NCBI RefSeq assembly: GCF_040939125.1
Contig: NZ_CP162495.1
Span: 2,356,001-2,420,000, forward strand
Origin: Clostridium sp. BJN0013
GTDB taxonomy: Bacteria; Bacillota; Clostridia; Clostridiales; Clostridiaceae
Direction of reading: 5' to 3'
Length of the DNA stretch: 64,000 nt
Shown here: positions 6,820-63,790 of the stretch, in pieces
Layout of the letters: every line of letters begins with the position of its first letter
Position numbering within the stretch: position 1 is the first letter of the stretch
Made by a program: the position numbers and the translations under genes
Notes under the pieces: generated by a model
The model's input: the letters and a program-made list of their open reading frames with translations, nothing else
Database searches by the model: none
What the model was told of the DNA's origin: nothing

Positions 6820-6852
6820 TAATATCACCTCCTTAATAGTATCAAACAATTG

Positions 6853-6904
6853 TTAGGCTCAGCTGAAGTTTATTATCAGTCAAATACTCCTCCTTGGAAC
6901 CTTT
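6853..6904 (-). repeat. dispersed repeat, copy E (partial, 3' hairpin only)
   Basis: On the minus strand this reads AAGGTTCC...GGAG, a variable loop with GAGTATTT, then AAACTTCAGCTGAGCC. It matches the last third of copy C at 63651-63790 (AAACTTCACCTGAGCC) at most positions. Only the long terminal hairpin remains. It sits between ffh and rpsP and would be co-transcribed with them. Confidence 0.55.
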
Positions 6905-17628: not shown

Positions 17629-17706
17629 GTTATTATTCTAATATTAGATAATAACAGAATAAACTAAGATTTACCCTGTTAATATCTTCATTAACTTGTT
17701 TTATTT

Positions 17707-17844
17707 GAACGCTGCCATTAACTGCAATTTTCTTCAAAGTGGAAGATAAGTATTGCTACACACATTTTTATAAGTTCTTCCAAGGTTCAGATGGAGAAAA
17801 GAATTCCTCATGAACAAACTCCATCCGAACCCCTGAATCACTAG
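17707..17844 (+). repeat. dispersed structured repeat, copy B
   Basis: Diverged long copy. It keeps CTTCAAAGTGGAAGATAAG, TAAGTTCTTC and the hairpin AAGGTTCAGATGGAG ... CTCCATCCGAACC, then TGAATCACT. The family is defined at 22542-22681. Here it is on the plus strand, antisense to ackA and yceD, in the gap between them. It occupies the region where an ackA terminator would be expected. Confidence 0.75.
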
Positions 17845-17861
17845 ATTGCCTTAAAAACCTA

Positions 17862-21247: not shown

Positions 21248-22474
21248 ATGAAAATAACTGGTATAATAGTCGAGTATAATCCTTTTCACAATGGTCATAA
21301 ATATCATATTGAAAAAACAAAATCCATAACAAACTGTGATAGTATAATTGCAGTAATAAGTGGAAACTTTGTACAAAGAGGGGCCCCCTCTATGGTAGAC
21401 AAATGGAACAAAACTAAAATGGCTCTTTTAAACGGAGTTGATTTAGTGTTAGAACTTCCAGTTCTCTATAGTTTATCTTCTGCAGAATTTTTTGCCTACG
21501 GAGCTGTAAGCCTTTTAGAAAATTTAGGAGTAGTAGAAAATTTGTGCTTTGGAAGTGAGTGTGAAGATATTAAACTATTAACTCTTATAGGAAAAATTCT
21601 ATGTGAAGAACCAGAAGAATTGAGATTAACTTTAAAAGAAAAACTATACCAGGGTATGTCTTATGCTTCTGCACGAGGGTATGCCTTAAAAGAATTTTTT
21701 TGCCGTAAATATCCTCTTAAAAATAACAGTATAACAGAAATACTTCATTTACCTAACAATATACTGGCAATAGAATACTGTAAGAGCCTAGCAAGACTTA
21801 AAAGTACTATTAATCCTGTGTCCATAAAAAGAATCGGAAATTCATATAACAGTACACATATAAATCATGGTTTTTCAAGTGCTACCTCCATTCGCAATTT
21901 TTTAAAAGAAAATAATTCTCTACAGGAACTAGAAAAAGCTTTGCCTTATAATATATTATGTATTTTAAGGAATTTAAGTCACTCCAATTATAAATTTACT
22001 TTTGAAGATTCTCTAGTGCCTTACTTAAAATATAAAAATTTATTTTATGGAAAGAATATAAAATATTTACCTGACGTATCAGAGGGACTTGAAAATAGAA
22101 TAGAAAAAGCTTTAAAAAATGCTTCTTCCTATGACCAAATTATAAATTATGCTAAAACCAAACGATATACCTACAGCCGCATAAGTAGAATTCTATGCCA
22201 ATTTTTCTTAGGATTTGAAAATTTAGATACAAAAGCTTTAAGGAAAAATAAATGTCCTTATGGAAGAGTTTTAGGATTTAACAGTAAAGGTATGGAAATA
22301 TTGAAAGAAATAAAACAAAATTCCTCTATACCTATATATACAAAACTTCCTAAAAATATAAATGATACATTAAAATTAGATATTATGGCCACAAAAGGCT
22401 ATAGTCTTTTAAATAAAAATATAGCCTTCAATCAAGATTATATTTCAAGTCCACTTATAATGGATAAAATTTAG
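21248..22474 (+). CDS. tmcAL: tRNA(Met) cytidine acetate ligase TmcAL
   Basis: Activates acetate with ATP and transfers it to C34 of elongator tRNA(Met). The nucleotidyltransferase signature EYNPFHNGHKYHIE is near residue 9, and ISGNFVQRGAPSMVDKW and the GFSSATSIRNFL stretch match the former DUF795 family. 408 residues. It is divergent from pta, with a TATAAT at 21201-21206 in the shared 263-base region. Use of acetate gives a plausible, unproven link to the adjacent acetate genes. Confidence 0.93.
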   Translation: MKITGIIVEYNPFHNGHKYHIEKTKSITNCDSIIAVISGNFVQRGAPSMVDKWNKTKMALLNGVDLVLELPVLYSLSSAEFFAYGAVSLLENLGVVENLCFGSECEDIKLLTLIGKILCEEPEELRLTLKEKLYQGMSYASARGYALKEFFCRKYPLKNNSITEILHLPNNILAIEYCKSLARLKSTINPVSIKRIGNSYNSTHINHGFSSATSIRNFLKENNSLQELEKALPYNILCILRNLSHSNYKFTFEDSLVPYLKYKNLFYGKNIKYLPDVSEGLENRIEKALKNASSYDQIINYAKTKRYTYSRISRILCQFFLGFENLDTKALRKNKCPYGRVLGFNSKGMEILKEIKQNSSIPIYTKLPKNINDTLKLDIMATKGYSLLNKNIAFNQDYISSPLIMDKI

Positions 22475-22541
22475 AATAAGTAGCCTGCTTAATAAATATA
22501 CTTTACTAAATCATATATTATATTTATTAAAATTTTTATCT

Positions 22542-22681
22542 GAGCGCGGTAATTGGCTAATACTCCCATCTTCTTTAAAGTGAGAGATAAGCACGACTAA
22601 CGCGCCTGAATAAGTTCTTCTAAGGTTCAGATGGAGATAAGCATTTCTCTATAGCAAACTCCACCTGAACCTTAGAATCAC
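22542..22681 (+). repeat. dispersed structured repeat, copy A (best copy)
   Basis: A roughly 140-base unit with three possible helices. GCGCG near its start can pair with CGCGC (about 22600). Inside is CTCCCAT ... GTGAGAG (22563-22586). Then a long hairpin has 19-base arms TTCTAAGGTTCAGATGGAG (22618-22636) and CTCCACCTGAACCTTAGAA (22659-22677) with one mismatch. Related copies are at 17707-17844 and 63651-63790, with partial ones at 51881-51930 and 6853-6904. It runs up to the start region of ylbJ on the same strand. Confidence 0.85.
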
Positions 22682-22708
22682 TTGATATTAGAAAGTAGGC
22701 GATTGACT

Positions 22709-23875
22709 TTGGAATTTTTACTTTATTTTTTAATATGTGCAATAATAATTCTTTTATATATTTTATTTAAGAACACAAATTTAATTGTAACCATAATCTG
22801 TTCAATTTTAATAGTACAAATTATAATGGCTCCAAAAATATGTATAGATGGAGTAATTATGGGAAGTTTTTTATTCTTTTATAAAGTGTTTCCATCCCTA
22901 TTTTCATTTTTAGTTGTATGTAATATAATTCTCTGTTATGATGGAATAAATATATATTCTAAATTAATAGGAAAAATCTTGTGCAAACCACTTAAACTTC
23001 CTATAAGTTGCAGCTTTGTAGTAATAATAAGTATACTCTGTGGCTATCCTTTAGGTGCCAAATACGCCTGTGAACTATATGAAAAAAACATAATAGATTC
23101 TTTTACCTGCGAAAGACTTTTAAATATAGCGTCTAATGCAAGTCCCATATTTATATTAGGTTCTGTAGGAATATCTATGCTTAAAAACTCCTTTATAGGT
23201 TATATATTATTATTGTCCAATTTTTTATCCTGTATTGTCATGGGACTTTTACTTCCTGCCAAAAAATCCTACAAAAATTATAACTTTGAGAAAACCCATA
23301 CTTATGTTTATGAAAATATAGGAATATCAATAAAAAGAAGCATAGAAAATTCTCTAACAACTTGCATATCTATAGGAGGATTTATAATTATATTTTCTGT
23401 AGTTAATAATATTTTAAAACACAATTTTTTATTTGATTCCCTCGTATATAGAATTTCAAATATAATAGGGATTTCCAAAGATATAGTAGAAGGTACTTTA
23501 CTTGGAATAATAGAAATGACAAATGGGTGCAATCTTATATCATCTTCTACTGCTTCCACTACTTTAAAACTTATAATTATAAGTTTTTTATTTACTTTTA
23601 GCGGTATTTGTATTATATTTCAGGTTTACTCTTTTACCTATAAATTTAAAATATCCATAAAAAAATATATAATCAGAAAAATGTTTCAGGGAATTATATG
23701 TTCTATAATAAGTTTTTTACTTTATAATTTATCTTTTCACAAATTATCTACACAAACTTTTTTACCTAACTATAAAATTACAGGAGATTTAAGTAATGTA
23801 TTTATACTTACTTTAATTTTACTCATAGTACCCTGGTTATTATTTAAATTAAAACACTTATTTCATATCTCTTAA
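22709..23875 (+). CDS. ylbJ: sporulation integral membrane protein YlbJ
   Basis: A polytopic membrane protein of about 388 residues with around eight helices. CGYPLGAKYACELYE and LLNIASNASPIFILGSVG match the YlbJ/nucleoside-recognition-gate family needed for spore cortex formation. No ATG exists at the 5' end. The TTG at 22709 is about 9 bases after AAGTAGG; TTGs at 22703 and 22682 are alternatives. The last 18 bases overlap the convergent gene at 23858. The repeat copy ends just before the ribosome binding site. Confidence 0.85.
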   Translation: MEFLLYFLICAIIILLYILFKNTNLIVTIICSILIVQIIMAPKICIDGVIMGSFLFFYKVFPSLFSFLVVCNIILCYDGINIYSKLIGKILCKPLKLPISCSFVVIISILCGYPLGAKYACELYEKNIIDSFTCERLLNIASNASPIFILGSVGISMLKNSFIGYILLLSNFLSCIVMGLLLPAKKSYKNYNFEKTHTYVYENIGISIKRSIENSLTTCISIGGFIIIFSVVNNILKHNFLFDSLVYRISNIIGISKDIVEGTLLGIIEMTNGCNLISSSTASTTLKLIIISFLFTFSGICIIFQVYSFTYKFKISIKKYIIRKMFQGIICSIISFLLYNLSFHKLSTQTFLPNYKITGDLSNVFILTLILLIVPWLLFKLKHLFHIS

Positions 23876-51839: not shown

Positions 51840-51880
51840 TGAAGCATGAATATTTTAAACAAATAGTATAAAATATAAAA

Positions 51881-51930
51881 GATTCAGGTAAAAAAGCACT
51901 CCGTATAACAGAATTCCACCTGAACCTTAT
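51881..51930 (+). repeat. dispersed repeat, copy D (partial, 3' hairpin only)
   Basis: GATTCAGGT ... TTCCACCTGAACCTTA matches the right half of copy A; GATTCAGGT pairs with ACCTGAACC apart from one position. It lies 36 bases after the stop of the GT39 gene, antisense to it. Read on the minus strand the hairpin is followed by TTTTAT, so it could double as that gene's terminator. Confidence 0.6.
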
Positions 51931-51965
51931 AAAAACTTTTATATCTACTTAAATTGTTGTTTTCT

Positions 51966-63613: not shown

Positions 63614-63650
63614 ATTTACCGACCTCAAAATTTTATTTTATCAAATAATT

Positions 63651-63790
63651 TTTAGGCTCAGGTGAAGTTTGCTATAAAAAAATACTTATCTCCATATGAA
63701 CCTTAGAAGAACCTATCCAGGCGCGTAGACCTGCTTATCTCCCATTTAAAGACTATGGGAGTATTAGCTTAATTACAGCCTTGGGATAAA
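63651..63790 (-). repeat. dispersed structured repeat, copy C, inside the pst operon
   Basis: Read on the minus strand it has TAATACTCCCAT...ATGGGAGATAAGCA, ACGCGCCTGGATAGGTTCTTCTAAGG, then a long hairpin GGTTCATATGGAG ... CTTCACCTGAGCC. It matches copy A over its whole length. The CTCCCAT/ATGGGAG stem is perfect here, whereas copy A has one mismatch. It would be transcribed between pstS and pstC. Confidence 0.85.

Follow-up and report, generated by a model that had tools for sequence, protein, structure and literature searches.

The closest described counterparts of the repeat analyzed here are the PATEs of Haloquadratum walsbyi, whose palindromes are related to those of IS605-type transposons according to the sections of PMC3119063 consulted; a PATE-like sequence has also been reported in Halanaerobium (consulted sections of PMC7290912). 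As far as these excerpts describe them, PATEs share with the clostridial repeat the lack of terminal inverted repeats, palindromes near both ends, insertion without target duplication, a length too short for a transposase and the nesting of elements within elements. In contrast to PATEs, no IS605-type parent was found for the clostridial repeat in the loci scanned, and its fold, built of two modules with covariation, is met again in several families of a single bacterial class. Members of the IS200/IS605 family such as IS608 and ISDra2 resemble it in inserting 3' of a fixed tetra- or pentanucleotide, in their terminal hairpins and in leaving no duplication, whereas the repeat encodes neither tnpA nor tnpB, and its hairpins exceed the 20–25 nt described and reach the ends themselves (excerpts of PMC6006769 and PMC7290912). 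REP/RAYT systems have in common with it high-copy, mostly intergenic palindromes, and Y1 relatives occur in many genomes that contain the repeat; however, REPs are single hairpins of 21–65 nt, compared to the 147 nt, fixed ends and fixed target of the repeat (excerpts of PMC3733652 and PMC6006769). Searches of open-licence literature gave no earlier description of this repeat family, including in PMC7290912, PMC3119063, PMC3733652, PMC2267715 and PMC6006769.

We consider it probable that the repeat is a short, PATE-like non-autonomous transposable element that is mobilized as single-stranded DNA, in IS200/IS605 fashion, by a Y1 (HUH) transposase acting in trans. Comparison of copies and insertion sites at the sequence level establishes its discrete ends, its insertion directly 3' of a TTTAT-like pentamer, the lack of duplication and of terminal inverted repeats, hairpins at both ends, the lack of room for a transposase, the absence of copies from relatives and a fold with compensatory changes.

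The window, i.e., the whole 64-kb stretch of Clostridium sp. BJN0013 DNA under analysis, contains three full repeat copies and two weak remnants of the right hairpin, as detected by a covariance model. The unit comprises TTTAT and about 147 nt, with its bounds taken from the drop in similarity in 30 oriented copies of the own genome and from empty sites in relatives. Left pentamer included, the full copies span 22535–22686 (+, E = 3e-30), 63640–63790 (−, E = 5.5e-25) and 17700–17846 (+, E = 1.7e-19), scored with a model that was partly built from these very copies. The features are as follows.

22540..22686, + strand: full-length focal element, 147 nt, absent from the relatives G004 and G011
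22535..22539, + strand: left pentamer TTTAT, target side, not duplicated (empty site and own-copy counts)
22540..22611, + strand: left hairpin module with consensus helices ATCC/GGAT, CGC/GCG, GCT/AGC and CTCCCA/TGGGAG (covariation, fold)
22610..22615, + strand: central ATAAGT, proposed guide; complements TTAT on the left target side and ACTT at the right end
22612..22683, + strand: right hairpin, with stem segments of 13 and 5 pairs above an AAGT/ACTT base (covariation, fold)
22682..22686, + strand: right terminal pentamer TTGAT, element end, nothing shared beyond (own-copy counts)
17705..17846, + strand: second full copy (left pentamer 17700–17704), absent from G004 and G011
63640..63785, − strand: third full copy (left pentamer 63786–63790; covariance model, nhmmer)
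51880..51937, + strand: decayed right-hairpin remnant, weak (nhmmer E = 0.0011, covariance model E = 0.36)
6841..6904, − strand: decayed right-hairpin remnant in the interval between SRP54 and ribosomal protein S16, weak (nhmmer E = 0.007 for a match spanning 6841–6902, covariance model E = 0.25)

An earlier note on this DNA, made from the letters alone, had described a dispersed structured repeat family with five copies in the window. This description holds, with three strong copies (E ≤ 1.7e-19) and two weak hairpin-only copies, plausibly decayed right halves; the limits given in the note for the full copies miss 2 to 11 bases at one end or at both. The focal copy is neighboured by a HIGH nucleotidyltransferase on one side and a weak Gate-domain match on the other, the second copy is flanked by yceD-like and acetate kinase genes, and the third is situated immediately upstream of an ABC-transporter permease gene. 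Allowing up to three mismatches, the 14-mer AGGTTCAGATGGAG occurs 20 times in the window compared to 4.5 expected, a number reached in none of 100 shuffles. As the note had also stated, no named family could be matched: the window contains no Rfam match at gathering score. The best sub-threshold match within 22440–22780 was to a plant microRNA family (27.9 bits, 35 required). The alignment of window positions 22620–22720 to MIR480, a plant microRNA family, is sub-threshold (E 0.073); it follows the primary sequence of the right hairpin and is probably due to chance.

The covariance-model search of the genome and of relatives that the note had suggested detected at least 150 copies in the 4.1 Mb genome and hits in 52 of 146 Clostridiaceae genomes. 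With this model, which was derived from 31 copies, each of the 150 scored own-genome candidates gave a match (E ≤ 2e-7), and this number is a lower bound, as 150 of 2724 candidates were scored; a previous DNA search had given at least 42 matches with 40 of 240 candidates scored. Thirty of the 150 matches are longer than 190 nt. Among the 30 oriented copies, similarity breaks off sharply on the outer side of TTTAT and of TTGAT. Of 102 own copies with flanking sequence, chosen by a local search that somewhat favours intact ends, 94 have TTTAT as their left pentamer and 84 have TTGAT as their right one. Without the pentamer, the element measures 143–151 nt (30 of 31 rows) and is thus too short to code for a transposase. 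Terminal inverted repeats are absent, with 6/25 identical positions between the first 25 bases of the consensus and the reverse complement of its last 25. Nearest-neighbour identity among 43 own copies reached at most 94.7% (median 88.8%), so that recent activity in this genome is not evident.

Empty sites give direct insight into insertion. At ten sites, a relative keeps one TTTAT-like pentamer at the position at which the filled site has the element between TTTAT and TTGAT or near variants of these, and no target duplication was seen at any of these ten pairs. The comparisons comprised the own genome versus G004, G011 and G003, C. ragsdalei versus a C. ljungdahlii locus, and nested copies. 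The empty site of the focal copy reads TTTGT directly followed by ATTAG in both G004 and G011. For the 17700 copy, the pentamer is TAAAT, with an 11-nt gap in the left flank (G004, G011). The remaining eight are TTTAT (four sites), TTCAT, TTTAC, TTGAT and CTTAT, the latter representing a related element nested in another copy, for which many uninterrupted copies are available for comparison. While exact TTTAT is found at 4/10 empty sites and 6/10 deviate, 43 of the 50 bases match TTTAT versus 17.5 at random window positions (0/20000 draws equal). Rows with a copy in both genomes were left out of this count. We set aside as ambiguous or unclean L018, L022, L054 (1961–2110), L293, L303 and L193, the comparisons of L016 and L085 with L098, of L051 (1972 and 7637) with L098, of L133 and L055 with L216 and of L256 with L203, and also partly deleted copies (L095/L096; L051 versus L096). 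Judged from these sites, the repeat is mobile DNA. The mobile, non-autonomous nature and IS200/IS605-like behaviour proposed in the earlier note are thereby supported, together with the further genome copies and the covariation across genomes.

The architecture consists of two adjoining hairpins with palindromes near both termini, and the arms of the right hairpin, TCTAAGGTTCAG...CTGAACCTTAGA, stand on an AAGT/ACTT base. Folding z-scores of the focal copy were −5.3 as DNA and −5.35 as RNA. Within the first 31 copies, nine cells were changed on both sides of a pair compared to 5.8 in shuffles (47/500 shuffles), which is no excess. A second alignment held 52 copies less than 90% alike, 35 from the own genome and 17 from others (52 of 53 picked copies; the rearranged L220 copy was omitted). 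Here, 88.0% of cells were paired and both-side changes occurred in 18 of 40 pairs, two of the tested helices having been added after inspection of this alignment; the both-side-changed cells numbered 58, versus 23.3 ± 3.9 in shuffled alignments (0/500) and 14–19 with the partner slid. This covariation supports a two-module fold kept by compensatory change, and the pattern fits a structure needed during movement of the element, with copies drifting afterwards.

Under the reading as a single-stranded DNA transposon, a Y1 transposase would read both hairpins and join the ends produced by cleavage directly 3' of YTTAT (left) and of TTGAT (right); as a possible guide, the central ATAAG may base-pair with the two cleavage sites. 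Among the points against this reading, it could not be established that a guide lies 5' of each hairpin foot, and the bias in replication orientation expected for this type of movement is only weak (86 or 90 of 150 copies by terminus placement, p = 0.086 or 0.018).

A tnpA- or tnpB-bearing parent with the ends of the repeat was not found in the loci scanned. The own genome has 15 Y1 matches, and the three representatives tested are IS200-type by NCBIfam. Nine near-equal Y1 matches with a 151-aa frame lie on the own contig; two contain a TAG stop, and the one of the nine tested (L037) is IS200-type. Among the ten best Y1 loci and five further stretches, repeats were detected only at L047. There, two full copies in opposite orientation flank a decayed IS200-type gene at distances of about 0.45 and 0.14 kb. 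Upstream of an IS200-type gene (L121) in G009, at a distance of about 0.2 kb, there is a left-module remnant (E 0.0003). We read both arrangements as chance, and the full copies at L047 were taken as independent insertions. G004, G015 and G025 harbour many repeat copies and gave no Y1 match. Of five PATE features tested, four were found in the repeat, and for kinship with IS605 there was a weak likeness (E 0.026–0.58) between the left hairpin of the repeat and the one at the left end of an IS605-type element that G010 and G009 contain (L120 1991–2028, others); the target of this element is TTTAAC, and its right end is unlike that of the repeat.

An autonomous version was also sought by searching left and right halves separately in 279 sequences (1.8 Mb, partly overlapping). 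The gaps between halves were 0–19, 50–69 or 120–209 nt, and 20 larger pairings at nine distinct places were rejected as halves of other copies, as the opposite right-hairpin arm or as lone decayed halves. The class with gaps of 50–60 nt mostly contains an extra hairpin, and in a common subclass (L111 2040–2227; L229, L248, others) the extra hairpin GTATTCTAAGTG...CACTAAGAATAC lies within approximately 54–60 additional nt between the modules. Long forms (L250 6567–6905, L247, L270, L277) carry a diverged relative that is nested in another copy at CTTAT and itself ends in CTTAT, which represents a second subfamily.

One possible driving enzyme is a RAYT-like Y1 protein encoded by other clostridia; alternatively, the enzyme may be extinct in the own genome. 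A narrower form of the preferred explanation holds that RAYT-like (REP-associated) Y1 transposases of Clostridia drive the element, that the repeat is the clostridial counterpart of REP/RAYT, and that copies in genomes lacking RAYT are fossils; we regard this as possible, although we lean against it. Matches at E 1e-10 to a 182-aa RAYT-like protein (L118 1462–2010) are commoner in repeat-positive (39/52) than in repeat-negative genomes (45/94; p = 0.0017, uncorrected for kinship). A repeat copy lies within 150 nt of three of the 26 RAYT genes examined in 22 repeat-positive genomes, compared to about 0.4 expected if 50 copies per 4 Mb are assumed (Poisson P ~0.007). One of the three overlaps the 3' end of the gene (G007), one is 96 nt away (G101), and the third is accompanied by a second copy 0.74 kb away (G111). 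However, the other 23 genes have no copy that close, so that, unlike in REP/RAYT systems, most RAYT genes examined are not flanked by the repeat. Moreover, 13 of the 52 repeat-positive genomes, including the own genome, G004 and G011, lack a RAYT-like match at E 1e-10. Since the own genome and 12 others are without such a match, RAYT is a candidate only, a possible but unproven driver. The repeat also differs from REPs in that the GT[AG]G foot is not conserved as a tag: GTAG is present in 5/52 rows on the given strand and in 33/52 on the reverse strand. The 182-aa protein used for these matches scored 67 bits against NF047646, below the cut-off of 80. In G111 (L359 2959–5202) and G101 (L356 6437–8412), the RAYT gene adjoins a PF01078 gene, which we take to be comM-like; in G111 this gene is interrupted, with two repeat copies inside and a dprA-like gene (PF02481) downstream.

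Alternatively, a site-specific recombinase, either serine or tyrosine as in coupling-sequence exchange, could act on circular double-stranded DNA with the pentamers as crossover sequences. The lack of duplication would agree with this, as would the likeness of the two end pentamers, TTTAT and TTGAT, to each other and to those of empty sites, and the near constancy of the left pentamer in filled sites compared to its variation in empty ones. We nevertheless judge it unlikely: both end pentamers are near-fixed in filled sites (94/102 and 84/102), whereas after coupling exchange one end would be expected to vary with the target. Serine and tyrosine recombinases also need no long terminal hairpins.

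It appears very unlikely that the repeat is a dispersed RNA, either cis-regulatory or small, which some unrelated process has spread and which persists through a function in 5' leaders. The strong fold, the compensatory changes and an asymmetry in a first sample of 106 copies, with 24 gene starts within 45 nt on the 3' side versus 12 on the 5' side, were in favour of this reading; the control for that sample was biased low, because calling ORFs from the first start codon hides leader sequence. A 5'-leader role, which had looked good in 34 and 106 copies, was not upheld in the 102 own-genome copies, where the asymmetry dropped to 23 versus 15 (p = 0.26). G-T pairs (86 cells) were no commoner than A-C mismatches (102 cells) on the given strand, which argues against selection as RNA, because a functional RNA of that strand should favour G-T. 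Furthermore, the presence or absence of copies varies between species at orthologous sites. The suggestion of a dispersed regulatory RNA in the earlier note therefore found no support in either G-T preference or one-sided gene starts. Its reading that part of the structure is kept stands on the both-side changes across genomes; G-T wobbles are no sign of it, and the first 31 copies taken by themselves gave no excess. Its statement that all copies are intergenic was nearly right, with some frame open across the element in 6 of the 102 own copies.

Remnants of TnpB-linked omega-RNAs or IStrons, of which the note had raised an omega-RNA-like segment, are scarcely credible: TnpB matches do occur in 11 of the 14 genomes searched (at least 50 in all), and one truncated match overlaps a repeat by 8 bases, but the repeat formed the 3' end of tnpB at none of the 30 loci scanned, of 50 matches listed, and the window is without an Rfam match. 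Full copies near TnpB genes were seen among these loci at L159 and L172 only, and each was taken as a separate insertion. The truncated match is located in G004 (contig C1, 2965618–2965728, −, profile 2–38 of 60) and overlaps the repeat at 2965476–2965625, perhaps reflecting insertion of a repeat into tnpB.

With regard to its distribution, the repeat was detected by DNA search in 18 of 59 relatives. Hits of the covariance model in Clostridiaceae cover 20 of 46 genera, and a class-wide sample gave 8 positives among 196 genomes, four of them outside Clostridiaceae; these two larger searches used stricter filters, by which weak matches are lost. Among named genomes, the 80 listed of 96 hits to an exact pattern all belong to Clostridium, one Clostridiaceae isolate or uncultured Clostridium, and many copies are present in Clostridium ljungdahlii, C. 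ragsdalei and C. carboxidivorans. Phage and plasmid records, from which those close to the own genome were possibly excluded, gave no match at E 1e-5, and an exact 21-mer had no match in viral contigs.

Other families of the class show the same architecture with different arm sequences (copies from G186, G218, G337 and G068). In the 19 of 20 stretches that were readable (L369 was lost to a contig end), these copies start with TTTATCC in 15, end with TGTTTAT in 18 and carry a central GGATAAC in 17. The own genome combines a GGATAAG centre with a CTTGAT end, and the other families combine ATAAC with GTTTAT; as read from these alignments, the paired central and right-end bases are changed together across families. 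A broader proposal, which we put forward tentatively and consider rather doubtful, is a class-wide lineage of gene-less single-stranded DNA transposons in which one central guide (ATAAG or ATAAC) would pair with the right end as well as with the target side, under a Y1 enzyme acting in trans and encoded elsewhere. On this proposal, with guide and right end changed together (ATAAG/CTTGAT, ATAAC/GTTTAT), target choice would be readable from the sequence. The repeat fills intergenic regions and poses the question of which enzyme moves a gene-less element for which no linked transposase was found, and the jointly changed ends make its target rule testable.
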